DNA from: Paludibacteraceae bacterium
Lineage (GTDB): Bacteria > Bacteroidota > Bacteroidia > Bacteroidales > Paludibacteraceae
DNA length: 64,000 nt
Assembly (NCBI GenBank): GCA_017464475.1
Contig: JAFTZQ010000016.1
Span: 43,530 to 107,529 of the forward strand
Direction of reading: 5' to 3'
In this document: piece after piece, positions 14,835 to 63,747 of the stretch
How the letters are laid out: every line of letters starts with the position of its first letter
How positions within the stretch are numbered: the first letter of the stretch is position 1
Notes under the pieces: model-generated
Told to the model about the DNA's origin: nothing
Seen by the model: only the letters and a program-made list of their open reading frames with translations
Database searches by the model: none
Position numbers and translations under genes: made by a program

Positions 14835-15302
14835 ATGACGAAAGAAGAGAAATACCAAGAATTGCTGGCACAAGCGGCTGCCGTGGTTGCCGGAGAGACG
14901 GATATGATCGCCAACATGGCGAACGTGGCGGCACTCATCCATGAGACGTTCGGGTTCTGGTGGACGGGGTTTTACAGAGTGGCCCCCTCCGACTCCCCCA
15001 TTAAGGGGGAGAGAAAAGAGCTGGTCTTGGGTCCGTTTCAAGGACCGCCGGCGTGTATGCGTATCCCTTATGGAAAGGGTGTCTGCGGCACAGCGTGGGA
15101 GAAAAACGAGACCGTGATCGTGCCCAATGTGCATGAGTTTGCCGGACACATCGCCTGCTCCAGCGAGTCCAACAGCGAGATCGTTGTGCCTGTCCGCCGC
15201 AACGGCGAGGTGATTGCCGTGCTGGATATAGACAGCAAAGAATTCAATACTTTCGATGAAATCGACAAAAAATACTTGGAACAAATCGTTAAATTGCTAT
15301 GA
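14835..15302 (+). CDS. msrC: Free methionine-(R)-sulfoxide reductase (GAF domain)
   Basis: Reduces free Met-R-sulfoxide in the cytoplasm using a GAF-fold active site. The three Cys positions of the family are present: PPACMRIP, GVCGTAW and HIACSSES, with PVRRNGEVIAVLDIDS closing the GAF fold. The start at 14835 (MTKEEKYQ) lies 23 bases after the promoter -7 box; the longer frame from 14739 runs through the promoter. Between the FWWTGFYRV strand and LVLGPFQGP the protein carries APSDSPIKGER, encoded by a palindromic repeat (14983-15014), which makes it slightly longer than usual. It overlaps the next gene by four bases (ATGA), so the two are translationally coupled. Confidence 0.93.
   Translation: MTKEEKYQELLAQAAAVVAGETDMIANMANVAALIHETFGFWWTGFYRVAPSDSPIKGERKELVLGPFQGPPACMRIPYGKGVCGTAWEKNETVIVPNVHEFAGHIACSSESNSEIVVPVRRNGEVIAVLDIDSKEFNTFDEIDKKYLEQIVKLL
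14983..15014 (+). repeat. Palindromic element in frame inside msrC
   Basis: CCCCCTCCGACTCCCCCATT followed by AAGGGGGAGAG forms a C/G-rich inverted repeat. Translated as APSDSPIKGER in a loop between two GAF strands. Confidence 0.85.
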
Positions 15303-16069
15303 AACACATTCTTTACTTGGCGGCAATCGTGCTATTAGCCGTCAGCTGTCAGAATTCAGAAGTCAGTAGTCAGAAGTCAGCCGGAACGGTTGTGCGCGAC
15401 ACGATCCACGGCACGCCCTGCTGCGTATATCTGCCTAATGAAGTACCAAGTACCAAATATCCGGTTCTCTATCTGCAGCACGGCATGTACGGCAACGAGA
15501 ACGACTGGACGAGGCAAGGGCGGTTGGTGGAGATCATGGACTCGTTGCGCCAAGCCGGAGAGGTCAAAGAGATGGTGGTTATCATGCCGGATAACTGTCC
15601 TTCTCGTCTCACTTCGGAAGAGGAGCGCGCGAACGCCATGAACGGCGAATGGATCCGCCAATTCCCGGACTTCATGGCGGAAGCCGAAGCCAAATATCCA
15701 ATCAGCAATGAACCTTCCAAGCGCGCCATTGCAGGTCTATCCATGGGCGGTTTTCACACCCTGCACGTGAGCCACTATCTGCATGGACAATTTGCATACG
15801 TGGGGCTCTTCTCCGCGGCAATCCGTCCTGTTGAACCGGTTGCGATCTACGACCATTGGGAAGAGGAAATCCGCGAACAGATGAAGACTACCACGCTCTA
15901 TTGGATCGGCATCGGAAGGGAGGATTTTCTGTATGATTTCAATACCGATTACCGCCGTTGGTTAGAAGCCAATCACCTCGAATACACCTATTACGAGAGT
16001 GCCGGAGGACACACTTGGGATAACTGGCAGGACTACCTCTGCCGATTCCTAAAAAAGTTATATAAATAA
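15299..16069 (+). CDS. Lipoprotein esterase of the esterase D / feruloyl-esterase-like family
   Basis: An alpha/beta hydrolase with a type II signal peptide (lipobox LAVSC), so probably anchored in the envelope. The nucleophile elbow is GLSMGG; downstream GREDFLYD and GGHTWDNW supply plausible Asp and His. The oxyanion region YLQHGMYGNENDW is typical of PF00756. The substrate cannot be told from sequence; xylan-linked acyl groups or small esters are possible. Directly after the lipobox Cys the protein reads NSEVSSQKSAG, encoded by a TCAGNNN-type array, so the linker is repeat-derived. It starts within the last codons of msrC (ATGA overlap). A weak terminator-like hairpin follows at 16105. Confidence 0.85.
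   Translation: MKHILYLAAIVLLAVSCQNSEVSSQKSAGTVVRDTIHGTPCCVYLPNEVPSTKYPVLYLQHGMYGNENDWTRQGRLVEIMDSLRQAGEVKEMVVIMPDNCPSRLTSEEERANAMNGEWIRQFPDFMAEAEAKYPISNEPSKRAIAGLSMGGFHTLHVSHYLHGQFAYVGLFSAAIRPVEPVAIYDHWEEEIREQMKTTTLYWIGIGREDFLYDFNTDYRRWLEANHLEYTYYESAGGHTWDNWQDYLCRFLKKLYK
15338..15382 (+). repeat. TCAGNNN heptamer array inside the esterase gene
   Basis: Units such as TCAGCTG, TCAGAAT, TCAGAAG, TCAGTAG, TCAGAAG and TCAGCCG are in frame immediately after the lipidation Cys codon region. Confidence 0.7.
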
Positions 16070-16104
16070 AAGACAAAAAGGCATAAGAACTTAGAAAGAA
16101 AATG

Positions 16105-16135
16105 ACCTGCATATGCCTCCGAGATTGGCAGGTTT
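16105..16135 (+). terminator. Possible terminator after the esterase gene
   Basis: ACCTGC and GCAGGT pair across 17 bases that contain a further GCC/GGC; followed only by TTTAAT, so termination is uncertain. Confidence 0.4.
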
Positions 16136-16151
16136 AATACTGACAAAAAAA

Positions 16152-16250
16152 TGCGATTTTGTGCAGTTTAGACTACATAAAACTTGCGATTTTGTGCAGT
16201 TTAGACTACCTAAAACTTGCGATTTTGTGCATTTTAGAATAATTTTTCTT
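16152..16250 (+). repeat. 33-bp direct repeats (about three copies) upstream of the third ATPase
   Basis: Copies start at 16152, 16185 and 16218, each opening TGCGATTTTGTGCA. The first two are nearly identical, with core GTTTAGACTAC; the third decays after 20 bases. The spacing of 33 bases is close to three helical turns, and the array abuts the promoter at 16249. No spacers are present, so it is not CRISPR. Confidence 0.85.
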
Positions 16251-16281
16251 GCATATATGAATAAATTTTACTACCTTTGCA
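16249..16281 (+). promoter_or_regulatory. Promoter of the third ATPase gene
   Basis: TTGCATATATG, then TACTACCTTTGCAGCGG; same layout as the promoters of the other ATPase genes. Confidence 0.85.
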
Positions 16282-16307
16282 GCGGATTTTAGAAAGACAT
16301 TATTCTC

Positions 16308-17591
16308 ATGAAGAACTTAAAACGTATTTTAGAGTCCCAAAGAGAGGAATTGGAGCATGTGGACACCGGCTTGCTGTGCACGCGCAAGGAGGAGCAAGAA
16401 GTGGATCTGAACAGCCATTTGGCACAGGTAGTTATCGGCGTACGACGCAGCGGTAAGTCAACGCTTTGTCAGAAAGTGTTGATTGAGAAGAACGTGCCTT
16501 TCGCTTATGTCAATTTCGATGACGAGCGTCTAAGAAATGCCAAAACGGACGACTTGGATGACGTACTACAGATGCTTTATGAGATTTATGGTGATTTCAC
16601 ACACCTGTTTTTAGACGAGGTTCAGAACGTCAAGGATTGGCCTCTATTCGTTAACCGCCTCTTACGCCAGCAAATTCGATTAATAATAACAGGAAGCAAT
16701 GCCAATTTGTTAAGCGGAGAATTAGCAACGCATCTCACCGGCCGTTACCATAAGATAGAATTGTTCCCATTCTCTTTTGCAGAAGTATGCAAAATGAACC
16801 ATATAGATACTGTATCCGGTAGCGTTCGCGCAATCGGACTGAGACAGCACGCATTATCGCAGTATATTATGGAAGGAGGCTTCCCGGAATTGATTGCTGT
16901 TCCCGAGACGAACAGACACGATTATTTACAATCACTTCTTAAAGCAATCATTGAGAAAGACATTTGCAAGCGATACAAAGTTCGGTACAAAAAAACGCTA
17001 TCCGATTTGGCAAACAAGATGCTAGATTGGTTCTGTCAAGAAAAATCCTACAACGATATAACAGAGGAATTAGGAATCCAATCGGTACACACCACGAAGA
17101 ATTATATGGAGTATCTGCAAAATGCGTATCTGCTATATGTGCTACCTAAGTTTTCCTTAAAGAGCAAAGAAAAGACGATGGCGCGTAAAGCCTATGCTAT
17201 TGATCCGGCATTTATTGACGAGCATGACAACGCCTTACTGACCGAGAGTTACGGTTTGCGACTGGAGAATGTAGTCGCATTGGAGATAGCACGCCGCATT
17301 CATAGTGACTATCAGCAACTATATTATTTACGCAAAGAACGTGAATATGAAGTGGACTTTGTGGTGGTAGAAAGGAATCATGTGCAAGAACTGGTACAAG
17401 TTACTTATGACTTTAGCAATCCTTCTGAGAAATTATATAAGCGTGAGATTGAAGGATTAACACGAGGATCAGTAGCAACTCATTGTGACAACCTGACGCT
17501 GATTGTTATGTATGGTGACACGGGTACCATTGAACATAACGGCAAAAAGATCCGTGTAGTGAATGCTGCCGATTGGCTCTTAGAACATTAA
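16308..17591 (+). CDS. AAA ATPase with DUF4143-type C-terminal domain (no flanking inverted repeats)
   Basis: A 427-residue P-loop ATPase. Walker A is GVRRSGKST (44-52); Walker B is HLFLDEVQN (D103, E104); RLIITGSNANLL is the sensor I segment and HLTGRYHKIELFPFSF a class hallmark. Near the C-terminus EYEVDFVVV is followed about ten residues later by ELVQVTYD, a nuclease-like fold without a clear ExK. Unlike the other three ATPases it lacks TATTGGATTACCG inverted repeats; instead it has 33-bp direct repeats before its promoter. The EEP gene starts two bases after its stop, so the two are probably co-transcribed, possibly by chance of insertion. Role unknown. Confidence 0.88.
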   Translation: MKNLKRILESQREELEHVDTGLLCTRKEEQEVDLNSHLAQVVIGVRRSGKSTLCQKVLIEKNVPFAYVNFDDERLRNAKTDDLDDVLQMLYEIYGDFTHLFLDEVQNVKDWPLFVNRLLRQQIRLIITGSNANLLSGELATHLTGRYHKIELFPFSFAEVCKMNHIDTVSGSVRAIGLRQHALSQYIMEGGFPELIAVPETNRHDYLQSLLKAIIEKDICKRYKVRYKKTLSDLANKMLDWFCQEKSYNDITEELGIQSVHTTKNYMEYLQNAYLLYVLPKFSLKSKEKTMARKAYAIDPAFIDEHDNALLTESYGLRLENVVALEIARRIHSDYQQLYYLRKEREYEVDFVVVERNHVQELVQVTYDFSNPSEKLYKREIEGLTRGSVATHCDNLTLIVMYGDTGTIEHNGKKIRVVNAADWLLEH

Positions 17592-17592
17592 A

Positions 17593-18585
17593 ATGCAGCA
17601 TAAGTGTTGTAATATTCTCCTTACTCTTGTAATGGTTTTCGCGGGTATAAACGCCATGTCTGCTGAGCCGCTGCGGGTGGTGAGTTATAATGTAGAGAAT
17701 CTTTTCCATCCGAAGCACAACAGCGTCATGACCGACAGCCTGTGGGTGGAGAAAGACGATTGGGAATGGACGCCGGAGGGTGAGCGGCGGTGGAGCTATT
17801 CGCGCTATGAACGGAAGGTCGAATCCATTGCCCGCGTGCTGACCCATATCGGCGAATGGGATGGGGTAGATATAGCGGGTCTGCAGGAGGTGGAGAATGC
17901 CAAATGCCTGCGCAAACTATGCTACACGCTACGGCGGGGCGAGTACGATTTTGTGCATTACGAGAGCCCCGACAGGCGGGGAATAGACGTTGCGCTGATC
18001 TATAAAAAGAGCAGGGTGGATACCATTCGGACGAGAAACCTCACCCCGACCCTCTCCCAAGGAGAGGGAGAATTAATCACCCGCGACATCCTCTATGTCT
18101 GCGCACAGGTGGACAAGAAGGACACTTTGCACCTGTTTGTATGCCATCTGCCTTCCCAGCGCGGCGGAGCGGCAGAGAGCGAATGGAAAAGGACCGCAGT
18201 AAAAGCCGTGCTGCAAACCGCCATCGACAGCGTTTATGCCCTGCATCCGAAAGCGAAAATCATCGTCATGGGCGATATGAATAGTGACGCCCCTTCTGTC
18301 CCCCTGAATGGAGAGGAACTACGGGGTGTGAGGTATCGGGAACCGGTTAATGGAAAAGAGACCGGCACGCATAAATGGCAAGGACGGTGGAGTTGTCTGG
18401 ATCAGTTTTACACTTCGCCGGCTCTGGACAGCCTCAGCACGGTCAATATCTATGATGCAGAATGGATCCAAGAACCGGATGAGAAATATCTCGGTCTCAG
18501 ACCCAAACGCACCTTCAATGGTTTTCGATACCAGAAAGACGGCTTCTCCGACCACCTGCCGATTGTGCTTACAGTTTCGCTTTGA
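17593..18585 (+). CDS. Secreted endonuclease/exonuclease/phosphatase (EEP) family protein
   Basis: A metal-dependent phosphoesterase of the EEP (DNase I-like) fold with an N-terminal signal peptide, so likely periplasmic or secreted. Motifs in order: VVSYNVENLF (Asn metal site), GLQEVEN (catalytic Glu), RRGIDVALIYKK, FVCHLPSQRGG, VMGDMNSD (Asp/Asn pair) and FSDHLPIVL (general base His). It may cleave nucleic acids, phosphodiesters or phosphoinositide-like substrates; the sequence does not decide. Two palindromic elements are inserted in frame: NLTPTLSQGEGEL (18039-18073) and APSVPLNGEELRG (18289-18332). It follows the ATPase by one base, and its 3' end overlaps the convergent TonB receptor gene by 17 bases. 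Confidence 0.88.
   Translation: MQHKCCNILLTLVMVFAGINAMSAEPLRVVSYNVENLFHPKHNSVMTDSLWVEKDDWEWTPEGERRWSYSRYERKVESIARVLTHIGEWDGVDIAGLQEVENAKCLRKLCYTLRRGEYDFVHYESPDRRGIDVALIYKKSRVDTIRTRNLTPTLSQGEGELITRDILYVCAQVDKKDTLHLFVCHLPSQRGGAAESEWKRTAVKAVLQTAIDSVYALHPKAKIIVMGDMNSDAPSVPLNGEELRGVRYREPVNGKETGTHKWQGRWSCLDQFYTSPALDSLSTVNIYDAEWIQEPDEKYLGLRPKRTFNGFRYQKDGFSDHLPIVLTVSL
18039..18073 (+). repeat. Palindromic element in frame inside the EEP gene, site 1
   Basis: ACCCTCTCCC AAG GAGAGGG arms; translated TPTLSQGEGE between a beta strand and the next conserved segment. Confidence 0.85.
18289..18332 (+). repeat. Palindromic element in frame inside the EEP gene, site 2 (degenerate)
   Basis: GCCCCTTCTGTCCCCCTGAA, then TGGAGAGGAACTACGGGGTG. 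It lies directly after the MGDMNSD catalytic motif, translated APSVPLNGEELRGV. Confidence 0.65.
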
Positions 18586-20761
18586 TACTCACTTTCGCCC
18601 AGGCGCCGGGTTGGAGGATACCGCCGTAGTCGTAATAGCGGGTGTTGGTCATGTTGGTACAATCGGCAGAGACGCGCAGGTACTTGTTTTGCCAGAAGAT
18701 TGAACCGTCCAAGAGCCATACCGGCTGATAATCCGCCACAGCTCTTTCGGCGTTATTATACTGCCCTTCACGTTTCTGAAAACGGACGGTCCACGACGCT
18801 CCGAGACCTTTGTAGATCCCATGCTCCAGATGGATCGAAAGCTTATGGCTGAGGTAGTCCAAGTACCGCGAACCGGACTCCTTCAGATTCAAATCCAGAT
18901 ACGTATAAGCATAGTCCACCGAGATACAAGGCCCCTCTCGCTCCCCCCATGAAGGGGGGAAGAAAGATGGAAAACGATAAGCCACAGACAGTTCCACACC
19001 CGTGGCATTCACCTGTTGCTGGTTCTCGGCATGGTAGGGACGCTTGGTGTCGGTCGGCACATACACCCAGTCGATGATATTCTTTCCCCAGCGGTAGTAC
19101 CAGTCGGCGGACAGAGACAGCTTGCCTGCTTTGCCAAAGTCCGGCGTGTATTTATACCCCACGGATAGCAGCCATGCTTCTTCGGGTTTGAGATTTCTAT
19201 TGCCAAGTTGGTTTCCGGCATTATAATAGAGGTCCGTGAAGGTCGGCATGCGTAGCGAACGATTCGCATTGGCATAGAGCGTACCGGCTTTCTCAAAGGT
19301 ATAACCGATGTTCGCACCTCCGCCTAAATGGTGTCCGAACTGCGTGTTATAGGTTCCGTTGATACCGATAGACGCAGCCAGTCCGGCGTAATAGAACGTC
19401 TGCTCGGCATAGTAATTGGCATGAAACCGGTTACCGCCTTTGACCAGATCCAGCACACGCACGTCCGCCAGCGGAAAATCCGCCACATTAGGCACTTGAC
19501 CATTCGGATTGATGGTGTCGCCCAAGTTAGTGGAATGCATGTTCTCGTTCCTTACTCCGACGCCGAAAGAGGTCGTACCAATCCGCGAAGCATAGTGTGC
19601 TTCGACAGCAGCAGAAGCAGTCTGGGCGAAATGGAAATTACCGTACAGCCGCTGGCCTCTATGCCACTCATAGCGGTCGTAGTTAGCGCGATATGCCGCT
19701 TGTACGTCCAGCCGCCATGCACCCCAACGATGGCCGTACTTGGCAGAAGCAAAAGCCGTACGCGTGGCGTCAAACTGATCCTGGCTGCCAAAACCATAAC
19801 CCATTCCGAGTCCTGCATCTTTCCATTGCGCACCGGCTTGCACATCCAGTCCTCTCCAGCGGGTCTGGAAATAGAGGTTGGCTAACTTGAAATCGCTGTT
19901 CTTGCACGCCGTGGCTTCTTTCTCTGTGGGCGAAGGCGCATAGTACCCATCCGCACGACTGTACTCGGCGGAGAGGTTAATAGTGAGCGGTTTAACCCCT
20001 CCCAACCTCCCCTCAAGGGAGGAGGATTTATCAGGAATGGCGAAAGTAGCCGCCACCTCGGGATTGACCAGACCGTTCATACCTGCCGTCAGTTTGAGGC
20101 TGACTTCTGACGGCTGACGGCTGACAGCTTGCTTCGTGACGATATTGATCGCACCGGAGAAAGCGCCGTGCAGGTTCGCCGACGTACCTTGCAGCACTTC
20201 CACGCGCTCGATCAGTTCCGCCGAAACAGGTATGTTGAGCGCATAGTGCCCGGTATGGAAATCCGAGAGCGGCACACCGTTCAGGAGCACCAGCACTTGG
20301 TCGAACGTACCGCCGCGCATGCTGATATCCGCTTGGGCACCGTTCGCGCCGCGCGTTCGCACATCCACCCCGGGCAGATACTGCAAAATATCCGCTACGG
20401 TCTGGATCGGCAAGGCTTCGATCTCGGCATGCGAGACCTGCGTGATCAGACGATAGGCTTCCGAATGAACTTCAGCTTTGTGAGAAACGACCAGCACCTC
20501 CTGAAGACTAAGTTGCTGGGCGGTTAATGGGACGGAATCCTTGGGAACGCCTTCATCGGCTTCCGCGGAAGCTACTCCGGCAAAGAGCAGTAACGCCGAA
20601 ACGGCAATACTCTTTCCGCTCTTGAGCATCTCAAGATCCGTCATGTACGCTGCCACGCGCCCGATCGTCACCTCGCGGTGAACAGAACAGAAAGCGGCAT
20701 ACGCCTTGTGGCTGAACCGACGGAAACGGATTCCTTGTTGTTTTAGAAGATTTTTGAACAT
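18569..20761 (-). CDS. TonB-dependent outer membrane receptor with extended N-terminus (BtuB-like style)
   Basis: A receptor of about 730 residues: signal region, plug (LSLQEVLVVSHKA, PGVDVRTRGANGAQADISMR, GTSANLHGAFSGAINIVTK) and a 22-strand-type barrel ending in KVSIKAKL. It lacks the SusC carboxypeptidase-like domain. The long N-terminal region (FRRFSHKAYAAFCSVHREV) before the hydrophobic signal is a form I associate with Bacteroidales cobalamin-type receptors; the ligand is inference. I prefer the start MFKN at 20761, because the alternative at 20776 arises inside a heptamer repeat. The gene carries two palindromic elements (18931-18962, 19992-20028) and one heptamer array (20101-20129) in frame. 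It is expressed from the minus promoter at 20810-20842. No cobalamin riboswitch fits in the leader of about 45 bases. Confidence 0.88.
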   Translation of the reverse strand: MFKNLLKQQGIRFRRFSHKAYAAFCSVHREVTIGRVAAYMTDLEMLKSGKSIAVSALLLFAGVASAEADEGVPKDSVPLTAQQLSLQEVLVVSHKAEVHSEAYRLITQVSHAEIEALPIQTVADILQYLPGVDVRTRGANGAQADISMRGGTFDQVLVLLNGVPLSDFHTGHYALNIPVSAELIERVEVLQGTSANLHGAFSGAINIVTKQAVSRQPSEVSLKLTAGMNGLVNPEVAATFAIPDKSSSLEGRLGGVKPLTINLSAEYSRADGYYAPSPTEKEATACKNSDFKLANLYFQTRWRGLDVQAGAQWKDAGLGMGYGFGSQDQFDATRTAFASAKYGHRWGAWRLDVQAAYRANYDRYEWHRGQRLYGNFHFAQTASAAVEAHYASRIGTTSFGVGVRNENMHSTNLGDTINPNGQVPNVADFPLADVRVLDLVKGGNRFHANYYAEQTFYYAGLAASIGINGTYNTQFGHHLGGGANIGYTFEKAGTLYANANRSLRMPTFTDLYYNAGNQLGNRNLKPEEAWLLSVGYKYTPDFGKAGKLSLSADWYYRWGKNIIDWVYVPTDTKRPYHAENQQQVNATGVELSVAYRFPSFFPPSWGEREGPCISVDYAYTYLDLNLKESGSRYLDYLSHKLSIHLEHGIYKGLGASWTVRFQKREGQYNNAERAVADYQPVWLLDGSIFWQNKYLRVSADCTNMTNTRYYDYGGILQPGAWAKVSIKAKL
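18931..18962 (-). repeat. Palindromic element in frame inside the TonB receptor, site 1
   Basis: The + strand reads CCCCTCTCGCTCCCCCCATG then AAGGGGGGAAG; the protein reads FPPSWGEREGP, expected in an extracellular or periplasmic turn. Confidence 0.8.
19992..20028 (-). repeat. Palindromic element in frame inside the TonB receptor, site 2
   Basis: AACCTCCCCT CAAGGGAGGAGG on the + strand with a flanking AACCCCTCCC; translated SSSLEGRLGGVKP. Confidence 0.8.
20101..20129 (-). repeat. TCAGCNN heptamer array inside the TonB receptor
   Basis: The + strand reads GACGGCTGACGGCTGACAG, inverse TCAGCCG units; translated AVSRQPSEVS directly after the plug-domain segment INIVTKQ. Confidence 0.75.
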
Positions 20762-20772
20762 AAAATTGATAA

Positions 20773-20802
20773 GCATTCAGCTGTCAGCTATCCGCCTTCA
20801 GC
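20773..20802 (+). repeat. TCAGCNN heptamer array at the receptor start
   Basis: GCATTCAGCTGTCAGCTATC and following CGCCTTCAGC; it creates an extra in-frame ATG for the minus-strand receptor gene. Confidence 0.7.
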
Positions 20803-20863: not shown

Positions 20864-20933
20864 GCGAATTTACAAAAATCGGTTTCAATCCGAATCATTC
20901 TTCCCTTATTCTCCCGATGACGTCGGCTTAACG

Positions 20934-20973
20934 ACCCACTAATCACCCACTAACCACCCACTAATCACCCACT
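20934..20973 (+). repeat. 11-mer CCCACTAATCA tandem repeat
   Basis: About 3.5 units (ACCCACTAATC, ACCCACTAACC, ACCCACTAATC, ACCCACTCG). The inverse family is at 54007-54047. Confidence 0.8.
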
Positions 20974-33422: not shown

Positions 33423-33818
33423 ATGAAGAAGCGTTTTTTATATCTGATAGCCGCCATTATTTGGGGCATTCCGGGCTTTATTATTGCTCTCAAAGGCATT
33501 CGTGCCTATACCGTCATGCCGGCTGACGAACTATGGTGGCTCTTGCTCATCACAGCCGCCGTGTTAGCCGGATTTATCCTCATGTTCCGCCGTATTGTGA
33601 ACCGTTATTGCGCCCTCATTGACGCCGAACCGGACAAAACAACGATCCTGCACACCTTTCCGCTCCGCGGATGGATCCTTATCGTATTTATGATGTGCTT
33701 GGGTATGGCTCTCAAATTCATGCCGTTTATCCCTGCCGAGTTCACCGCATCCTTCTATTCCGGACTTGGACCTGCGCTCATCATTGCCGCTTGTTGGTTC
33801 ATCCGAAAATTCTTCTGA
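33423..33818 (+). CDS. Small four-helix inner membrane protein
   Basis: A 131-residue protein with four hydrophobic segments (FLYLIAAIIWGIPGFIIALK, LWWLLLITAAVLAGFILMF, WILIVFMMCLGMALKFM, ALIIAACWFI). The start at ATG 33423 lies 26 bases after the -7 box; an in-frame start at 33384 would precede the promoter. No family is named with confidence. It is followed after one base (TGATATG) by the TonB receptor gene, so it may assist the uptake system, for example as a permease fragment or regulator; this is inference from position. Confidence 0.8.
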   Translation: MKKRFLYLIAAIIWGIPGFIIALKGIRAYTVMPADELWWLLLITAAVLAGFILMFRRIVNRYCALIDAEPDKTTILHTFPLRGWILIVFMMCLGMALKFMPFIPAEFTASFYSGLGPALIIAACWFIRKFF

Positions 33819-33819
33819 T

Positions 33820-36123
33820 ATGCGAAAAAAGGTATTCCTATGTCTGTTGGTTGCTTCGGTCTATTGCGCCGGAGCACCTGTTGCCACGGAGCAGAATTGG
33901 AGCGATTCTGTTTCGCTGCCGGATATAGAAGTGTCGGTCAGTCGCCAGCAGTCGGCTATCAGCCATCAGCCGTCTGCCGTCAGCGTCATTGACAGTCGCT
34001 TGATCGAAGAGACACAAGCCCTTTCGCCGAAGGACATCAGTATTCTTGCGCCAAACGTATATATGCCGGATTACGGTTCGGCAATGACCAGCAGCGTCTA
34101 TATCCGCGGTCTGGGAAGCCGCATCAACGAACCCGTCTTAGGAATGGTCTTGGACGGGATACCTTTGCTGGACAAGAATATGTACGACCACACCATGCAG
34201 GATGTCAAACGGATCGAGTTACTCACCGGTCCGCAGGGTTCGCTCTATGGTCGTAACTCGCCCGGCGGAGTGATGGAGATTCGTACAATCCAACCCTTGG
34301 ACTTGACTACCCAACTCATCCGCGGCGAAGTGGGATACGCCTCTGCTAATCAGATCCTCGCGCAAGCCTCGTATTATAACCGGCTACATAGTATTTCCTC
34401 CCTCCCTGCGGGGGAGGGTCGGGGTGAGGCTTTCGGATGGGGTATCGCGGCGCATTACCGGCGCACGGACGGCTTCTATACCAACGCTTTTAACAACAAA
34501 AAAATAGACGGCGGACAGCAGGCTGGCGGACGGATTATCTTGGACGGCAAACCCAACGATACGTGGCGCGTAACAGGTACTATATATGCCGATTGGCTCA
34601 AACAAGGTGCTTTTCCTTATGCCGCAGCGCAGACCGGGATCATTGCGTACAATGCCCCGGCAGGCTATGAGCGGCTGGTAGTGTTACCTTCTTTGCGCGC
34701 GCTGTACGAACAGAACGGATACAAACTATCGCTTGCTGCCAGCTACCAGATGCTGCGCGATAATATGCTGATGGACCAGGACTACACCACGGATGATATC
34801 TTCACCCTCAACCAGTCCCAGAAGCAACATAATGCCACCTTCGACGCGCTCCTCACTAACTCACTCAACACTCATTCACTCAACTACGAATGGCAAGTGG
34901 GACTCAGCGCGTTTGGCAAAACCAACCAAATGTCCGCTCCGGTCACTTTCATGAGGCAGGGTATAGAGGAACTGATCTTGGGAAACGCCAACCGCGGCAT
35001 TCAGACCGTCTTTCCCGATGACTCGATCGAGATCAGCAACCGGACCCTCCCTATAAATAGTGATTTCGGGCTGCATAATGCCGGCGTTGCGATCTACCAC
35101 CAAAGCCATTTGCAGATCAATAAATGGCATATTCGCGCAGGGCTGAGGCTGGATTATGAATACACCCGGATGGACTACCTCAGTACGGCGGATCTAAACT
35201 ATCGTTTTACGATGATTATGAGTGAGTTAGCGCCTGTTAACACACGTATTCAGGGTACAAAAAATGCCCATTATATCCAGGTCCTTCCGCGGCTTGCTGT
35301 CAGCTATGAACACGACTGGGTGACCGCCTATGCCTATGCTGCCAAAGGGTACAAAGCCGGAGGATATAACCCGCAGATCTTCAGTACGATTACCCAGAAC
35401 CAGGTCATGACGGACATGGCGGCAGACATGGGAATGCACTTGGACATGGCGGACCCGCATTTCTCCGACGTGGCGATCACGCAATACAAACCGGAGAAAG
35501 ACTGGACTTTCGAAATAGGTGCGCATTTCATGCCGATGGAGGGGCTGAAAATAGACATCAACGCCTTCCATATACAATGTTTTGACCAGCAAGTGACCGT
35601 TTTTCCGAATGGCAAGACCACAGGCCGTATGATGGCAAATGCAGCGCGGTCGCGTATATGGGGCGTCGAGACTGCCCTTCATTACCGCTGGAACAAAGGC
35701 AACTGGCGGGGCATAGCGGACGCTTCGTACGGCTTTACCGACGCGCGGTTTATTGACTTCAACGACGGAATGGGCAATTATGCCAACCATTATATCCCTT
35801 ATGCTCCGCAGCACACCTTGCACGCACTTGTCATGGCGCAATATAGGGTGAATAAAAAATGGCTCGAAGCCGTTTCGCTCTCTGCACGCGTTAACATGGT
35901 CGGACCCGTTTATTGGAACGAACAGAACGACTGCAAACAAGACCTGTATGCCCTTCTCGGAGCGAATGTGTCGTTCTATTGGAAATATGTCCAACTCCAA
36001 CTTTGGGCAAGAAACCTGACCGGCACGCAGTATAATGTGTTCTATTTCCGCTCCATGGGAAATGATTTCCTGCAGAAAGGCAAACCCCGCGAATTAGGAG
36101 CTACCATAAAATTTGAAATTTAA
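33820..36123 (+). CDS. TonB-dependent outer membrane receptor
   Basis: A 767-residue receptor: signal peptide to about residue 20, TonB-box-like region VSLPDIEVSVS, plug with VYIRGLGSRINEPVLGMVLD and LTGPQGSLYGRNSPGGVMEI, then a beta barrel ending ELGATIKFEI. There is no SusC-type N-terminal domain; the style is that of siderophore or small-ligand receptors. A heptamer array (33934-33985) is translated RQQSAISHQPSAVS between TonB box and plug, and a palindromic element (34396-34430) as SSLPAGEGRGEA in an extracellular loop. It is the second gene of a four-gene unit followed by a calycin-like lipoprotein, suggesting uptake of a hydrophobic or haem-like ligand; the substrate is unproven. Confidence 0.9.
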   Translation: MRKKVFLCLLVASVYCAGAPVATEQNWSDSVSLPDIEVSVSRQQSAISHQPSAVSVIDSRLIEETQALSPKDISILAPNVYMPDYGSAMTSSVYIRGLGSRINEPVLGMVLDGIPLLDKNMYDHTMQDVKRIELLTGPQGSLYGRNSPGGVMEIRTIQPLDLTTQLIRGEVGYASANQILAQASYYNRLHSISSLPAGEGRGEAFGWGIAAHYRRTDGFYTNAFNNKKIDGGQQAGGRIILDGKPNDTWRVTGTIYADWLKQGAFPYAAAQTGIIAYNAPAGYERLVVLPSLRALYEQNGYKLSLAASYQMLRDNMLMDQDYTTDDIFTLNQSQKQHNATFDALLTNSLNTHSLNYEWQVGLSAFGKTNQMSAPVTFMRQGIEELILGNANRGIQTVFPDDSIEISNRTLPINSDFGLHNAGVAIYHQSHLQINKWHIRAGLRLDYEYTRMDYLSTADLNYRFTMIMSELAPVNTRIQGTKNAHYIQVLPRLAVSYEHDWVTAYAYAAKGYKAGGYNPQIFSTITQNQVMTDMAADMGMHLDMADPHFSDVAITQYKPEKDWTFEIGAHFMPMEGLKIDINAFHIQCFDQQVTVFPNGKTTGRMMANAARSRIWGVETALHYRWNKGNWRGIADASYGFTDARFIDFNDGMGNYANHYIPYAPQHTLHALVMAQYRVNKKWLEAVSLSARVNMVGPVYWNEQNDCKQDLYALLGANVSFYWKYVQLQLWARNLTGTQYNVFYFRSMGNDFLQKGKPRELGATIKFEI
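33934..33985 (+). repeat. TCAGCNN heptamer array inside the TonB receptor
   Basis: Units GTCGGCTATCAGCCATCAG and CCGTCTGCCGTCAGC are read in frame, lengthening the linker between TonB box and plug. Confidence 0.75.
34396..34430 (+). repeat. Palindromic element in frame inside the TonB receptor
   Basis: CCTCCCTCCCTGCGGGGGAG then GGTCGGGGTGAGG; translated SSLPAGEGRGEA in the opposite orientation to the copies read as TPTLSQGEGE. Confidence 0.85.
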
Positions 36124-36614: not shown

Positions 36615-36986
36615 ATGAACTGGACAGGAATTATCATCGGAGCAGCTGTCTTTCTGAGTATTGGCATCTGCCATCCTATTACGATCAAACTGGAGTATTA
36701 TTTCGGGCGCAAAGGCTGGTGGGGATTCTTTATCCCCGGAGTGATCTGTACGGTCATTTCGCTGCTGGTCGATAACTATATCGCCTCTACGATCATAGCC
36801 GCTTTTGCTTTCTCGTGCTTCTGGGGCATTCACGAAGTGATGCAGCAGGAAATGCGCGTCTTGCGCGGCTGGTTCCCGGAGAACCCCAAACGCCACGACT
36901 ATTACGAGCGCAGAAGAAAAGAGCTGGGAGACATCCTAAAGGAAGGTCCCAGCCACAAACATCTGAAAGAAAAAATGGGTAAATAA
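36615..36986 (+). CDS. DUF4491 family membrane protein
   Basis: A 123-residue protein with three hydrophobic stretches (IIIGAAVFLSIGICHPI, GFFIPGVICTVISLLV, STIIAAFAFSCFWGI) and a basic cytoplasmic tail with WFPENPKRHDYYERRRKE. This matches the small Bacteroidota membrane family DUF4491, of unknown function. It lies 29 bases after the calycin-like gene, last in the + strand run, and converges on nadA with a palindromic element (36988-37020) between them. Confidence 0.85.
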   Translation: MNWTGIIIGAAVFLSIGICHPITIKLEYYFGRKGWWGFFIPGVICTVISLLVDNYIASTIIAAFAFSCFWGIHEVMQQEMRVLRGWFPENPKRHDYYERRRKELGDILKEGPSHKHLKEKMGK

Positions 36987-36987
36987 T

Positions 36988-37020
36988 CCCCTCCCTTCGG
37001 CGGAGGGCCAGGGTGGGGCT
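36988..37020. repeat. Palindromic element between convergent genes
   Basis: CCCCTCCCTTCGGCGGAGGG followed by CCAGGGTGGGG. The only clearly intergenic copy of the family; here it may serve as a bidirectional terminator. Confidence 0.8.
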
Positions 37021-37953
37021 TTAACTCATTTCGAGCATCCGTTGGATAGAAGAGATAGCTTTTTCGGCTGTCTCTTTTTTTACCTCCATCTCCGGCTGCT
37101 CGTCTCTGAGACACGCGTACACTTTCTCCAAGGTATTCATCCGCATGTACTCGCACTCGTTGCAGCTGCAGCCAACCCCTTCTGTCACCTCCGGCGGAAC
37201 GGGAATAAACTCCTTTTCCGGACATGCACGCTGCATCTCAAACAGAATGCCGCTTTCTGTGGCGATTATAAAGCGTTTGGCGCTCGATCGGATAGTGTGC
37301 TCCAGCAATGCCTTGGTCGAACCTATTACGTCGCTCTGGGCCAAAATAGGTGCCTTGCACTCCGGATGAGCCAATACTTCCACACCCGGGTTCTCTTTCT
37401 TCAACTGCAGCAACGCCTCCAGCGAAAAACGGCTATGAACATGGCACGCTCCGTTCCACAGCAGCATATTCCGTCCGGTAACCGAATTGATATAACTTCC
37501 TAAGTTATGATCCGGACCGAAGATGATCTTGGCGTCATGCGGCAACTGATCTATGATCTTCTTCGCGTTCGAACTCGTCACCACCACATCCGTCAGCGCT
37601 TTCACATCCGCGCTTGTGTTCACATAACTCACCACCAAATGATCCGGATGTTGCGCTTTGAATACCGCCAGATCCTCCGCTTTGCAACTGTCCGCCAGCG
37701 AACAACCCGCATTCATATCCGGGATCAGCACTTTCTTCTCCGGACAAAGGATCTTCATCGTCTCGCCCATAAAATGCACGCCGCACATTACTAATATATC
37801 CGCGTCCACGCGCGTAGCCTGTTGCGCGAGCGCGAGAGAATCTCCGATGAAATCGGCGATTTCTTGTATCTCCGGACGTGTGTAATAGTGCGCGAAAATG
37901 ACTGCATTCTTCGCCTTCGCCAACTCCCTTATTTTACCCTTCAGCTCCTCCAT
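37021..37953 (-). CDS. nadA: Quinolinate synthase
   Basis: Condenses iminoaspartate with dihydroxyacetone phosphate to quinolinate in NAD synthesis, using a 4Fe-4S cluster. The 310-residue protein has the family blocks AVIFAHYYTRPEIQEIAD, VMCGVHFMGETMKIL, IPDMNAGCSLADSC, LWNGACHVH, AHPECKAP and the C-terminal GVGCSCNECEYM, whose Cys residues with those earlier bind the cluster. Length is normal for the family and there is no insertion. It is probably transcribed alone; 205 bases separate it from corA upstream, and no nadB/nadC is in the window. Confidence 0.96.
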   Translation of the reverse strand: MEELKGKIRELAKAKNAVIFAHYYTRPEIQEIADFIGDSLALAQQATRVDADILVMCGVHFMGETMKILCPEKKVLIPDMNAGCSLADSCKAEDLAVFKAQHPDHLVVSYVNTSADVKALTDVVVTSSNAKKIIDQLPHDAKIIFGPDHNLGSYINSVTGRNMLLWNGACHVHSRFSLEALLQLKKENPGVEVLAHPECKAPILAQSDVIGSTKALLEHTIRSSAKRFIIATESGILFEMQRACPEKEFIPVPPEVTEGVGCSCNECEYMRMNTLEKVYACLRDEQPEMEVKKETAEKAISSIQRMLEMS

Positions 37954-38158: not shown

Positions 38159-39109
38159 TTATAACCATTTTTTCAGTCTGAAAATCAACAAGATAAGTAC
38201 TACCGAAAGTACCATCAGACCGAGCGCAAAAGCATATCCCAAACGCCAATGCAACTCCGGCATAAAGTCAAAGTTCATGCCGTACAAACTACCGATCAAA
38301 GTCGGCGGCAGGAAGATAATATTGATGACCGTAAAGATCTTAATGATTCGGTTCTGCTCGATGTTTACCAAACCGAGGAATGTATCCTGCAGGTAGTCCA
38401 GACGGTCAAAACCGAACCGCGTGTAGTCGAAAAGCGAATTTATATCTTTGATGATCATCGTCAACCTCGGATACAGCTCTTCCGGGAAGAAATCGCACTT
38501 CAGGAAGTTGGAAATAACGCGCTGTTTATCCATGATATTCTGACGGATAATAGTCACTTTTTCTTGCAAGTCCTTTATCTGAACCAGCAAATCTTCGTCC
38601 ACGTGATCGCTCTCCGCGTTGATCTGTTGCGATAGTGCGGTAATCATATCCGTCGTGTCCTCGATCATATCCGCATCCTTTTCTACTCGGGTCTCGAAGA
38701 GCGCCACCAACACGTGGTATCCGGTCGGAAAATTACGCGTGTTCACAAATAGTTTCTTGAATGTCTCATTGAACGTGTCCAACTCATGATCGCGGATCGA
38801 TACCAAGATGGAATTCTTCAAAATGAAGTTCACCGCCTCGGTCTCAAAATCCGACTTCAAGAAGTTCGAGTTCGCTACGATCGAATCGTCCGTCTGGATA
38901 TAACGGCTGGAGAACTCGATCTCCTCCATTTCCTCGTCTTCCTGAATATCAATCTTCAGGAATCCCTCCAATGTGTCCTCGGTCTTGTCGCTCACATCGA
39001 GCAGATCGATCCAGATAATATCTTTCTTATCGAGCTCGCGAAGCGCGGAGATAGAACGCGCTACCTTGATCTTCTCCTTATCTTTATAGAATATCTTGAT
39101 TTCTGACAT
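38159..39109 (-). CDS. corA: CorA-type magnesium/cobalt transporter
   Basis: A 316-residue protein with a long acidic and helical cytoplasmic domain and two C-terminal transmembrane helices joined by the signature loop [13 protein letters not shown]. The first helix is [16 protein letters not shown] and the second [17 protein letters not shown], followed by a basic tail RLKKWL. It forms a pentameric inner membrane channel for Mg2+ and Co2+ in characterised members. The start codon lies inside the 3' end of rsmA (26-base overlap), so corA is co-transcribed with it. Confidence 0.95.
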
Positions 39110-41684: not shown

Positions 41685-41730
41685 TCCCGTCACCCCTCCC
41701 CCACCTGCGACTAATCCCCTCTTTTCTTTT

Positions 41731-41820
41731 TTCTTTGTGCATTTCTCGCGCATATTTGCGCGAGCCCTTGATTGTTTCTCTGTGCATTTCTCGCGCATAT
41801 TTGCGCGAGCCCTTGATTGT
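41731..41820 (+). repeat. 45-bp tandem duplication with internal hairpin
   Basis: Two adjacent copies (41731-41775, 41776-41820) differing at one or two bases. Each contains CTCGCGCA, loop TATT, TGCGCGAG, an 8-bp stem. Confidence 0.88.
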
Positions 41821-53907: not shown

Positions 53908-54027
53908 ATGAATAAATGCGTTTGTATTATGGCACTTGCTACACTTTTAACGGGACGAGCAGCCGCAACCCTGACCTTCTCCTGCCACTACTCAATTACG
54001 GTGCACGAGTGGGTGATTAGTGGGTGA
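53908..54027 (+). CDS. Possible 39-residue leader or decayed secreted peptide
   Basis: ATG 53908 opens MNKCVCIMALATLLTGRAAA, which looks like the start of a signal peptide, then runs into the GTGGGTGATTA repeat, whose TGA ends it. It stands 31 bases after the promoter-like element. It could be the truncated start of a former gene cut by the repeat, a leader peptide, or chance. Confidence 0.3.
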   Translation: MNKCVCIMALATLLTGRAAATLTFSCHYSITVHEWVISG

Positions 54028-54047
54028 TTAGTGGGTGATTAGTGGGT
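54007..54047 (+). repeat. 11-mer GTGGGTGATTA tandem repeat
   Basis: Three full units plus a partial one; inverse of the CCCACTAATCA array at 20934. It supplies the stop codon of the 39-codon frame. Confidence 0.85.
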
Positions 54048-58839: not shown

Positions 58840-58850
58840 TAAATGCCATT

Positions 58851-58895
58851 GTACCGGGATGCCGTACGAGCGACATTCCGGTACAGCCTATTTTT
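58851..58895 (+). terminator. Terminator after the BIG2 lipoprotein gene
   Basis: TGTACCGG and CCGGTACA form an 8-bp stem with further inner pairing, followed by CCTATTTTT. Confidence 0.7.
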
Positions 58896-58917
58896 AAATT
58901 ATAAAAAAAAGTTACGT

Positions 58918-59931
58918 ATGAAGAAATTTTTACTTTCAGCTTTGGTGCTTGCAGCAAGCACCTTTGCAGCCAATGCCATCGAAGGCGAACTCTCAGGCAA
59001 GTTCATCATCAACACTGACGGAGACAGCGTTCATTTCTCACAGGGACTCCTCCAGTATCATGAAATGACAAGTGAATGGTCGTTTGCGGCCTACCAGTTT
59101 AAAGCCGATAATGACGCACTCGCGTATTTCGGTTGGGGGACCAGCGGTTGGAACAGCGGTGCCAATGAGTACCAGCCTACTTCTACCTCTGCCGATCCGG
59201 CTGACTATTTTGTAGGCGGTAATGAGAACAACAACTTGACCGGCGACTATGCCTATGCCGACTGGGGAATCTACAACCCCATCAAAAACGGAGGGAACAG
59301 ATCCGGACTATGGCGCGTGCTCACCCATGAAGAATGGGTATATATCGTAGAGTCGCGTCCGAACGCGGGCAAACTGTTCGGTTTCGCTACGATTGATAAC
59401 CTGTACAAAGGTGTTATCTTGCTCCCGGACGAGTGGGTTCTCCCCTCTGGCGTAACCTTCAAGCCCGGCACGGATTGCTATATGGAGTATGAGACCGGCA
59501 ATGGATGGCGGAATCTGAATCTCGATATGCAGACCAACTATAATGACAACAAATATACCCTTGCCCAATGGGAGATAATGGAAGAAGCCGGTGCTGTCTT
59601 CTTCCCGGCTATGGGATATCTCACAGGTGGAGAGATCCGTTATCCGAATGACTACGGTTACTACGTTTCCTCCTCCGCGAGAAATGGATACACCGAGTAC
59701 GCAATGGAGTTTGACAATAAGAGTCTCCTTGCCAGCGACGGCGCTTCCAGAAGGGGAAATGGCGTCTCCGTACGTCTCGTCACCCGTCCCGATAGCGACT
59801 ATCAAGGCATTGATGAAATATCCTCTTCCCTTCAGGGAGGAGATAGAGGTAGGCTCATTCTTCGTGACGGACAAGTCCTCATCCTGATGGACGGCAAGAT
59901 AATTAACGTGCTGGGACAGCCAGTACGTTAA
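58918..59931 (+). CDS. Secreted paralogous-domain protein with conserved C-terminal tail
   Basis: A 337-residue secreted protein (signal peptide LLSALVLAASTFAANA). The body matches the style of a common Bacteroidales/Fibrobacter secreted paralog: FSQGLLQYHE, AYADWGIYNPI, WRVLTHEEWVYIVESRPNA, GVILLPDEWVLPSGVTF, AVFFPAMGYL and GNGVSVRLV. It ends with LILRDGQVLILMDGKIINVL and GQPVR, the tail shared with the giant protein and the 62084 protein. A degenerate palindromic element (59820-59849, SSSLQGGDRG) sits exactly between body and tail. Function unknown; probably a cell-surface binding protein. Confidence 0.83.
   Translation: MKKFLLSALVLAASTFAANAIEGELSGKFIINTDGDSVHFSQGLLQYHEMTSEWSFAAYQFKADNDALAYFGWGTSGWNSGANEYQPTSTSADPADYFVGGNENNNLTGDYAYADWGIYNPIKNGGNRSGLWRVLTHEEWVYIVESRPNAGKLFGFATIDNLYKGVILLPDEWVLPSGVTFKPGTDCYMEYETGNGWRNLNLDMQTNYNDNKYTLAQWEIMEEAGAVFFPAMGYLTGGEIRYPNDYGYYVSSSARNGYTEYAMEFDNKSLLASDGASRRGNGVSVRLVTRPDSDYQGIDEISSSLQGGDRGRLILRDGQVLILMDGKIINVLGQPVR
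59820..59849 (+). repeat. Palindromic element before a C-terminal tail
   Basis: TCCTCTTCCCTTCAGGGAGG then AGATAGAGG, in frame as SSSLQGGDRG. Confidence 0.7.
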
Positions 59932-60176: not shown

Positions 60177-60194
60177 AAAATGTGACCTTTGACA

Positions 60195-60481: not shown

Positions 60482-60505
60482 AGCGGATTTTAATAGCAGA
60501 AAGAT

Positions 60506-61942: not shown

Positions 61943-61969
61943 TACACATCTCTTTTCGGTCTTACTATT

Positions 61970-62006
61970 AAAGCGGTAATCCAATTAAGCGGTTTACCGC
62001 TTTTTG
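61970..62006 (+). terminator. Terminator of cassette 3, containing inverted repeat R3
   Basis: AAGCGG, loop TTTA, CCGCTTTTT, preceded by CGGTAATCCAATT (R3, 61974-61986, one mismatch from the inverse of L3). Confidence 0.75.
61974..61986 (-). repeat. Inverted repeat R3 bounding ATPase cassette 3
   Basis: CGGTAATCCAATT matches the inverse of L3 at 12 of 13 positions, 31 bases after the ATPase stop codon. Confidence 0.75.
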
Positions 62007-62083
62007 TGTGTCATCGAAGAATTAGAATAACTAGGTGAACTAGTTAGAATAGATAAACCAAACAATTAAAAACAACAAATAGT

Positions 62084-62920
62084 ATGAAAAAAATCTACTT
62101 GGTTGCTCTGATGAGCATTACAACTTTCGCTGCTGCTTTTGCAGCTGAATGGGAATCCGGAATCAAGGTGTTTGGTACCCAGATCACCTCGGACAATGTA
62201 TCCGACCTCATGTCGCTCTTCAAAGACAACGAGGCGGAAGGCACCGTCACGTATGACCACGCCACGCAAACGCTGACCCTGACCAATGTCCAGCTGACGT
62301 CTCATGACGTGTGGAACAGTTTCTTCCGCTTCACCAGCACCGCGGCAAACAAACAATTCAAGGTGGTGGTAAACGGAATTTGCGGCTTTTACAACAACGG
62401 CAACAAGCATTCCGTCTTTTTCGCAGAGAGCGGCATCACAATTACTTTCGAGGGAGGTTCCTCTGATCCGTACAAGGACGCTATCCAGATCATGGAAGGG
62501 AATGGCTTCTGTGCGGAAAACGGCACGATGATCTTCCGCGACGTAGCGCTTGATTTTACCGACGTTACCTTCCCCCTCAGCGGTAATTCCAAGTCCGACC
62601 TTCTGGCGCTGACCCTTGACCACTGCACCCTGATGGCGCACCCGACGAGTATCTTCGGCAACCTGAGCGAGTTCAATATGGTCAGCTGCTATTTCAAGCA
62701 ACCTGCGGACGCAGTCTATAACCCGGAGAAACACCGCGTTGAGATCAACGGAAATGAACTCGCAAATATGGACGTGCAGATATCCGCGAGCGACAAGCAG
62801 GGCGTAGACCAAACCCCCTCCGGCTCCCCCTCAAGGGGAGAGAAAGTGCTGCGCGACGGCATGCTCCTCATCGATCGCAACGGCAAGACCTATAACGCGC
62901 AAGGCGCGGAAGTACGGTAA
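62084..62920 (+). CDS. Secreted beta-rich protein with conserved C-terminal tail
   Basis: A 278-residue secreted protein (signal MSITTFAAAFA). The body is a Bacteroidales surface module: IKVFGTQITSDNVSDL, GTVTYDHATQTLTLTNVQL, FKVVVNGICGFYNNG and SGITITFEGG, a right-handed beta-type pattern often found in carbohydrate-binding or adhesive proteins. The end, EKVLRDGMLLIDRNGKTYN plus AQGAEVR, is the shared C-terminal tail. A palindromic element (62812-62846) translated PSGSPSRGE lies precisely before it. A terminator of the ATPase cassette and a TAGAATAACTAG-type microrepeat precede the gene. Confidence 0.82.
   Translation: MKKIYLVALMSITTFAAAFAAEWESGIKVFGTQITSDNVSDLMSLFKDNEAEGTVTYDHATQTLTLTNVQLTSHDVWNSFFRFTSTAANKQFKVVVNGICGFYNNGNKHSVFFAESGITITFEGGSSDPYKDAIQIMEGNGFCAENGTMIFRDVALDFTDVTFPLSGNSKSDLLALTLDHCTLMAHPTSIFGNLSEFNMVSCYFKQPADAVYNPEKHRVEINGNELANMDVQISASDKQGVDQTPSGSPSRGEKVLRDGMLLIDRNGKTYNAQGAEVR
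62812..62846 (+). repeat. Palindromic element before a C-terminal tail, intact frame
   Basis: CCCCCTCCGGCTCCCCCTCA then AGGGGAGAG; translated TPSGSPSRGE. The copy at 63640 differs by one extra base and breaks its gene. Confidence 0.88.
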
Positions 62921-62953
62921 TGCGCGGTCTTTGAATTATAAATCGAAAATAGT

Positions 62954-63747
62954 ATGATTAAACTGATAAACATATTGATTATGGCACTGACGATAGCTAC
63001 GGGTAGTGGAGGAGAACCCCAAGCCACCTACCGGATTGATTATGCCGGAAAGAAGTATTGGTTTTGCGCAATGACGAAAAGCGGCAAACAGATTGCTCCG
63101 CCGGAGCAGGCGAAAGCGGGGGAAGAGGTGGTCATCTACTATCCCACGATCGCCACTGACACCGATTACACCTTCCTGGTGGACGGCTGCTATTTCCGTC
63201 CGGAATACCAGAGGGACAAAGGGTTTATCTTCCGTTTCGTCATGCCGGACCACGACATCACCATCGAGTGTAACGAGCGCAACTTCATGCTCCCGGAAAT
63301 GGATCCGGACGGCGTGAGACCGCAGTAGCAACAGGTCGGACGGACAGGTAGCCTATATCAACACGGGGGCTTTCGCGAATGGTTACTCGCTGCGATCCGT
63401 GACTATCCCCCGCAGCGTGGAGATTGTCGGGGATTCCGTTTTTGGCGGGTGCAGGTCTCTAAAAACGGTCTATAACTATGCCGTCACCCCGCAGCGCATA
63501 AACGGTAGTGTTTTCGCGGAGGTAGATCAGTCCCGATGCACCCTCTATGTCCCGAAGGGATCCGTTCCCGCATACCGGGCGGCGGACGTATGGAAGGACT
63601 TTGTCATCGAGGAAATGCCCGCGCAGGAAGGCGTAGAAACTCCCTCCGGCTCTCCCCTCAAGGGGAGAGAAGGTGCTCCGCAACGGCATGCTCCTCATCG
63701 AGTGCAACGGCAAGACTTACAATGCCCAAGGCGCCGAGCTCCGCTGA
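62954..63747 (+). pseudogene. Decayed BspA-type LRR surface protein (two frameshifts)
   Basis: The first part (62954-63328, 124 codons) has a signal-like start (IKLINILIMALTIATG) and an InlB-like repeat (YTFLVDGCYFRPE, FRFVMPDHDITIECNE), then stops. From 63318 another frame continues with AYINTGAFANGYSLRSVTIP and CRSLKTVYNYAVTP, the typical end of an LRR_5/BspA protein. A second shift occurs in the palindromic element near 63640, where a C-run is one base longer than in the intact paralog, after which the conserved tail KVLRNGMLLIECNGKTYN resumes in a third frame and ends at TGA 63747. The likely original was a secreted LRR protein with the shared C-terminal tail. Sequencing error cannot be excluded. 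Confidence 0.75.
63640..63670 (+). repeat. Palindromic element causing a frameshift
   Basis: CTCCCTCCGGCTCTCCCCTC then AAGGGGAGAG; compared with 62812 it has one more base in the central C-run and shifts the tail out of frame. Confidence 0.8.

Follow-up and report, generated by a model that had tools for sequence, protein, structure and literature searches.

A dispersed and probably mobile palindromic repeat within and between the genes of a Bacteroidales genus

A short C/G-rich palindrome is dispersed in at least 149 short copies through the genome of a Paludibacteraceae bacterium of the order Bacteroidales, and part of these copies lie in frame inside conserved protein genes. The palindrome was recognized in a stretch of 64,000 nucleotides (GenBank assembly GCA_017464475.1, contig JAFTZQ010000016.1, positions 43,530 to 107,529 of the forward strand), which is referred to as the window throughout this paper. 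The genome itself, labeled G000, comprises 1.90 Mb in 36 contigs, is 71% complete, and contains the window as C1:43530-107529. The palindrome is probably a non-autonomous mobile element, comparable to repetitive extragenic palindromic (REP) sequences and Rickettsia palindromic elements (RPE), which spreads to new sites within one Bacteroidales genus, probably of rumen bacteria.

The short form of the element is usually 33 nt long (107 of the 149 copies, range 30-35) and has the consensus ACCCCACCCCNNCCCTCCCCTCAAGGGAGGGAG. It is composed of a C-rich 5' box (ACCCCACCCC), a 2-nt spacer (NN), and a 7-bp GC-rich hairpin formed by CCCTCCCC, TCAA and GGGAGGGAG, with the arms CCCTCCC/GGGAGGG. CG makes up the first stem pair in 111 of the 121 lettered rows. 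A long form of about 80 nt has the same outer ends as the short form, and its first hairpin arm is replaced by about 50 nt of structured sequence, so that the ends are imperfectly inverted (CCCCACCC/GGGAGGG). The predicted fold of the long copy at 39203-39285 (fold z -2.47) joins the 5' box to the 3' GGGAGGG arm. The covariance model used for the searches, named R1, was built on 14 seed copies, seven from the window and seven from elsewhere in the genome. No known RNA family was found in the window by Rfam at the gathering threshold (0 matches).

The genome copies were aligned (150 of the 154 matches were taken in), and judged from this alignment the hairpin shows compensatory change. Standard pairs occupied 96.8% of the pair cells in 123 distinct aligned copies, and doubly changed pair cells numbered 81 compared with 16.5 in shuffles, in an alignment that was fitted to R1 and therefore leans towards the structure. 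Two-sided changes were present in all seven hairpin pairs, a result equaled by 5 of 500 shuffles, and when the partner column was slid by 1-3 positions the true structure was never exceeded on any covariation measure. The predicted folding energy of three short copies ranged from -14 to -18 kcal/mol, with a modest gain over shuffles (z -1.6 to -2.1).

The dispersal that the initial annotation had described within the window extends to the whole genome. The 149 short copies are R1 matches at E <= 0.1, a lower bound for which 150 of 571 candidates were scored, and at least 18 places of the long form, including the query, were found with 40 of 77 candidates scored. The two-arm pattern occurred 7 times genome-wide compared with 0 for the reversed control, and the arm motif CCCTCCCC occurred 4 times in the window against a shuffled mean of 1.25 (2 of 100 shuffles reached 4), which is a weak signal by itself. 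The possibility that the copies are chance C/G-rich hairpins was rejected on the basis of the genome-wide matches and the covariation. The copies are also clustered: 18 neighboring short pairs are less than 200 nt apart, compared with a simulated mean of 2.7 and a maximum of 9 in 2000 random placements.

The relation of the copies to genes was assessed by a custom codon score, with no gene finder. In the frame test, a codon model was applied to the 150 nt flanking each of the 149 copies to the left and right, the element itself being left out. Fifty copies were found between same-strand coding flanks in one open frame, three joined flanks in another frame, two had a stop between the flanks, and 94 were undecided (69 with one coding flank, 22 with none, two with flanks on opposite strands, and one at a contig edge). 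The same test on random positions returned 50-54% open, and therefore the elements are only slightly underrepresented in genes. A less strict test placed 108 of the 149 copies in a scored open reading frame (ORF), compared with 543 of 672 random positions; 62 of the 108 have sense and 46 antisense orientation, with all six phases represented. Five of the six frames of the element are stop-free in 84-97% of the copies. Among 13 long forms examined, six were in frame between coding flanks, one had same-strand flanks in a different frame, and six were undecided. The count of stops in the used antisense frame (0 of 14 copies, compared with 82 of 135 others) was not used as evidence of stop avoidance, because the ORFs had been chosen as open and the count is true by construction.

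Pfam was run on 24 distinct hand-chosen host ORFs, which include the window's RsmA and GAF protein, and also on seven ORFs of the window; in the first two scans, 19 of 20 hand-chosen host ORFs had a Pfam match. The hosts identified by Pfam and solved-structure searches include DNA polymerase III alpha (DnaE), LysRS, GlnRS, a class I tRNA synthetase, a poly(A)-polymerase-family enzyme, RelA/SpoT, RsmA, an HflX-type GTPase, DapB, RibD, DXS, and a Mur ligase-alanine racemase fusion. Locus L053 carried the Pfam name AsnRS, which was rejected since its solved homologue is LysRS. In RsmA, LysRS, GlnRS, and DnaE, the element peptide is located in or beside a gap of the solved homologue. Several genes have more than one insert: RsmA contains two elements (one short and one long), HflX contains three by the genome scan with R1 and a fourth, weaker one in a later scan, and DapB contains three in an ORF of 269 residues. 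The comparison of DapB with its solved homologue was mixed, with one element in a gap, one between two aligned stretches, and one aligned without a gap.

In the window, R1 gave nine full-length matches (E <= 2.2e-4), of which seven were seeds of the model and two, at 62812 and 63638, were not; together with one long form, they make ten supported copies. The initial annotation had counted about 12, two more than are firmly supported. Nine of the ten supported copies are in ORFs and eight of these nine are in frame, in agreement with its statement that all but one intragenic copy keep the frame. On the plus strand, the copy at 14981-15013 (E 9.8e-7) is in frame in a GAF-domain ORF (14739-15302; GAF by Pfam) with the peptide VAPSDSPIKGER, and the copy at 18038-18070 (E 3.4e-9) is in frame in an endonuclease/exonuclease/phosphatase ORF (17593-18585) with the peptide NLTPTLSQGEGE. 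Two further plus-strand copies, at 18930-18962 (E 3.5e-6, peptide FFPPSWGEREGP) and 19995-20025 (E 3.7e-5, peptide SSSLEGRLGGV), are antisense and in frame in the same TonB-dependent receptor ORF on the minus strand (18569-20776). The minus-strand copy at 34398-34430 (E 5e-9, peptide SSLPAGEGRGEA) is likewise antisense and in frame in a TonB-plug receptor ORF (33766-36123). The rsmA gene (16S rRNA dimethyladenosine transferase, 39084-40001, minus strand; Pfam RrnaAD, E 9.7e-51) carries two minus-strand elements in frame: the long form at 39203-39285, which encodes 29 residues, and a short copy at 39866-39899 (E 8.7e-9), which encodes 12 residues. The single intergenic copy, at 36987-37019 on the minus strand (E 8.5e-8), is located exactly between the convergent ORFs 36615-36986 (+) and 37021-37953 (-), and this and other intergenic copies may act as terminator-like hairpins.

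The plus-strand copy at 62812-62844 (E 2.2e-4) is in frame before the C-terminal tail KVLRDGMLLIDRNGKTY of ORF 62084-62920, and the 34-nt plus-strand copy at 63638-63671 (E 9.7e-5) is the exception that shifts the frame, the tail KVLRNGMLLIECNGKTY being in another frame. The minus-strand stretch at 59820-59855 (E 0.43, non-significant alone) lies in frame in ORF 58843-59931, whose C-terminal ILRDGQVLI tail it closely precedes, and it is likely a decayed copy because it adjoins the type of tail at which other copies sit. The stretch at 18289, also counted earlier, was unsupported as a copy (E 7.5), and the syntenic region of a related genome, UBA3653, has an unrelated longer stretch there. The three elements at 59820-59855, 62812-62844, and 63638-63671 and nine further genome copies are found just before a short tail, KVLRDGMLLI...GKTYNAQG, which looks to us like a sorting-type tail of Bacteroidota.

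Comparison with relatives indicates, from the aligned sequences, that the element peptides were inserted and are not ancestral, because same-genus orthologs occur with and without the peptide and because gaps are seen in solved homologues. This bears out the insertion proposed in the initial annotation, and it applies to HflX, DapB, the sites of locus L101, the endonuclease, and two TonB receptors. In alignments of 29 same-genus loci each, obtained from 41 genomes searched, the peptides of HflX were found in only part of the species, and those of DapB likewise vary species by species. Locus L101 of the window genome contains ten R1 matches and one long form; nine of these 11 places were aligned, two of them with one relative, and in the comparison with relatives from 15 genomes the elements were carried or missing by species. 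In DXS, where the window genome has the long form, G002 has a short form in the same position and other genomes have other inserts or none, whereas in HflX the reverse was observed, with the short form in the window genome and the long form in G002. The contig DFKE01000014.1 of UBA3653 is syntenic with window 14834-20732: three elements are common to both (a diverged copy of the one at 14981 and the two in the TonB receptor), and the element at 18038 is absent. The TonB receptor of UBA3653 has two further elements, one of exact consensus and one judged by eye. In RGIG3224, the element at 34398 corresponds to a 12-residue gap in the ortholog of the TonB-plug receptor.

Other sequence features were noted at some of these loci. 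Simple repeats of the GTCAGAA/GGCTGAC type are present inside ORFs at window 15341-15380 and 20098-20129, and at the latter place the window TonB receptor has QAVSRQPSEVS where UBA3653 has a 15-residue palindrome peptide. Unrelated short repeats (AGTCAAAAGTCGAAAG-like, GATTTAAGATTGAAGATT-like, and CAGTCCGAAGGACGGTC-like repeats and 'ELKIKNYELKIED' peptides) fill the same protein loops in sister species, at the L101 sites and in DapB orthologs. In addition, 144 bp of L101 (L101:3256-3399) are 99% identical to G018:C35:34653-34796, where neighboring matches have 78-81% identity, and this may reflect either recent exchange or another repeat.

The element is unevenly distributed. Among 36 same-genus relatives, for which up to 116 candidates were scored per genome (the window genome reached at least 116 in that scan), nine had no R1 match, five of these being at least 95% complete, and the rest had 1 to 89. 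In other families of the order, five of 24 genomes had matches, with 24 as the highest number. The exact consensus was found in at least 102 stretches in a search of 84,980 named genomes; among those listed, 98 are from Bacteroidales/Paludibacteraceae, three are from one pig metagenome-assembled genome, and one is from an 'uncultured Bacteroidetes' Kiruna bin, and many titles name rumen, reticulum or omasum. Related C-rich palindromes are thinly spread across Bacteroidota (36 of 197 other genomes, with at most 36 candidates scored per genome), and some of these genomes (G224, G230) have inverted pairs of elements. The initial annotation knew of no equivalent description for this lineage. Among the papers listed in searches of an open full-text library there was none on such an element in Bacteroidales, which is no proof of absence.

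The flanks of the copies have a characteristic composition. In the 94 copies used for the flank and duplication tests (those of the first 105 that are 33-mers and have complete flanks), position -1 is A in 98% and position -2 is A/T-rich. The upstream flank is purine-rich on the element's own strand, and since this holds for sense, antisense, and non-genic copies alike, the base composition speaks for a target preference or for an extended element end rather than for a coding effect.

Several known repeat systems are similar to this element in part. RPE are described as short palindromic repeats in intergenic DNA and, in frame, in conserved genes (PMC10969869; PMC2229807), and a reference title in PMC2229807 names RPE-like elements in Wolbachia. 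The likeness to RPE noted initially holds for the mode of residence, in frame inside conserved protein genes, and not for the RPE length or the conserved peptide frame: the present element usually has 33 nt (about 80 nt in the long form) and occurs in both orientations with all six phases used, whereas RPE are described as having 105-150 bp with terminal inverted repeats and one conserved peptide per family. It also belongs to a different organism group; these distinctions are drawn from published descriptions of RPE. To our knowledge, no transposase is known for RPE.

REPs of the GTAG/CGTC type have been reported as high-copy stem-loops of 20-40 nt, also as dimers, with some inside ORFs of Opitutus terrae, R. 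conorii, and others; the CGTC type has been reported in Bacteroidetes, and most REPs are intergenic in that account (PMC3733652). The element is similar to them as a small high-copy stem-loop located partly inside ORFs. It differs in that a C-rich 5' box precedes the stem, that GTAG or GTGG was found within 6 nt on either side of the stem in 0 of 107 33-mers, that CGTC was found within 6 nt beside the stem in one of 107, with CG and not AT as the first stem pair, and that by the strict test at least one third of the copies are intragenic, where the REPs of that account are mostly intergenic. The spacer is GT, which can form CGTC with the first stem base, in nine of the 107. Intragenic palindromes of the REP type are already described outside Rickettsia in that account. 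RAYT (REP-associated tyrosine transposase) genes of subclass 2.6 in Bacteroidetes reportedly have atypical secondary structures on their flanks (PMC6006769), and the element shares with them the Bacteroidota host and the dispersed secondary structures. BrickBuilt miniature inverted-repeat transposable elements (MITEs) of Porphyromonas gingivalis are also repeats of a Bacteroidales species and, by their description, to which the comparison is limited, are treated as intergenic and non-coding (PMC5771137), unlike the present element. With regard to MITEs in general, which have terminal inverted repeats and a target-site duplication, the long form has imperfect inverted ends, and no clear duplication was seen among the 94 copies.

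Mobility of the element with enzymatic help supplied in trans would place copies with little regard to gene borders, and copies that break the frame or disturb the fold would then be lost by purifying selection, so that intragenic copies would survive solely where frame and fold are kept. The element would add a short stretch rich in Pro, Ser, Gly, and Glu where orthologs already vary in length. Its tolerance would be explained by a length of 33 nt, which is divisible by three, by five mostly stop-free frames, and by the location of the peptide at length-variable positions. A number of observations weigh against mobility of this kind. In several cases the inserts replace a few residues and are no simple addition, and no clear target-site duplication was detected in the 94 copies (best z 3.4 among 180 combinations). 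The hairpin had no excess of further pair types (12 compared with 11.6 in shuffles), and the covariation counts are inflated by copies related through descent. Eleven copies occupy one kind of C-terminal tail junction in proteins that are probably paralogous, and these may be non-independent insertions that descended with duplicated genes. Flank hydropathy and turn propensity were the same as at random positions of the same proteins (p 0.93 and 0.90) at 69 of the 108 ORF copies, those with a score >=40 at internal positions; therefore the location in surface loops, which the initial annotation had suggested for mapping, rests on length variation in a few aligned families, where the sites are indeed at length-variable positions. 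As for a mobilizing enzyme, no Y1_Tnp (RAYT-type) gene was found in the window genome, which is weak evidence because that genome is incomplete; three of the seven relatives with at least 20 R1 matches (G034, G021, G036) had no Y1 match; and the sole strong Y1 gene of the genus is in G027, a genome with two R1 matches.

The main rival explanation dispenses with transposition: copies would have multiplied through recombination between short repeats, or through template switching between them, as DNA was replicated or repaired, insert-tolerant loops would have been refilled repeatedly, and the palindrome would be one of several repeat families. The unrelated repeats at the same loops in other species, the SRQPSEVS stretch of the window TonB receptor in place of a palindrome peptide, the replacement of loop residues, the failure to find a clear target duplication, and the exchange of long and short forms in both directions in DXS and HflX all favor it. 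The defined ends, the orientation-linked flanks (A at -1, purine-rich upstream), and the compensatory changes in the hairpin look instead like an element with its own recognition, and spread without transposition is considered possible but unlikely. The copies might alternatively be orphan REPs that were once, or still are, moved by a RAYT/TnpA-REP enzyme of Bacteroidota subclass 2.6, whose reported flanking secondary structures (as far as PMC6006769 describes them) could be of this kind. Y1 matches were found in 15 of the 36 same-genus relatives, nearly all weak and partial; a single match, weak and partial, was found in each of the other four of the seven copy-rich relatives (G018, G035, G022, G007; E 1e-5 to 4e-4), and a diverged Y1 enzyme may be present in them. 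In G224, an R1 pair and a Y1 gene containing a stop are separated by about 0.6 kb, and inverted pairs in G224 and G230 are in line with this origin. Against this origin, an R1 match was near just one of 36 distinct Y1 places, the one whose gene contains the stop (37 sources, L340 being the same as L379; the positive is L343, and some of the Y1 matches are weak), G002 too had no Y1 match, and the stem is not accompanied by a GTAG or GTGG tag. Control by a RAYT in the window genome was thus unsupported, and an origin from such an enzyme is regarded as doubtful, slightly more so than recombination.

A function of the element, as a hairpin in the mRNA that adjusts expression or makes translation pause, or as a useful linker peptide, is very improbable. 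The stable predicted hairpin with its compensatory changes and the copy placed exactly between two convergent ORFs could be understood in this manner, but the sites differ among species of the genus, five nearly complete relatives have no match, both orientations and all phases are used in genes, and the folding z of the short form is modest. More speculatively, the palindrome might be part of a continuing turnover of protein loops, in which members of several unrelated repeat families replace one another, in frame and without a transposase, at shared length-variable sites of core enzymes from species to species, with the palindrome as the most structured of these families. This broader proposal is put forward tentatively, as one that is rather unlikely to hold; if it were true, repeat DNA would continually supply the genus with new protein sequence.

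In-frame palindromes in conserved genes are best known from Rickettsia, and here they are found at scale in gut Bacteroidales. The 36 sister genomes, with 0 to 89 matches beside the at least 149 of the window genome, make the birth, tolerance, and loss of inserts countable, and the inserts offer a natural set of insertions with which to learn where proteins accommodate about 11 to 29 additional residues. Annotators should be warned that such peptides are repeat-derived.

Other repeats and frames were also observed in the window. An 11-nt repeat (AATCACCCACT, in cyclic form) makes small tandem arrays at 20929-20973 and 54008-54047 on opposite strands. Nearly perfect tandem repeats are present at 16152-16238 (33-nt unit, 2.6 copies, in the interval preceding the ORF at 16308) and at 41730-41820 (45-nt unit, 2 copies). 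At 4633-14331, a GTG-started plus-strand frame of 3232 amino acids overlaps minus-strand open frames of up to 739 amino acids.

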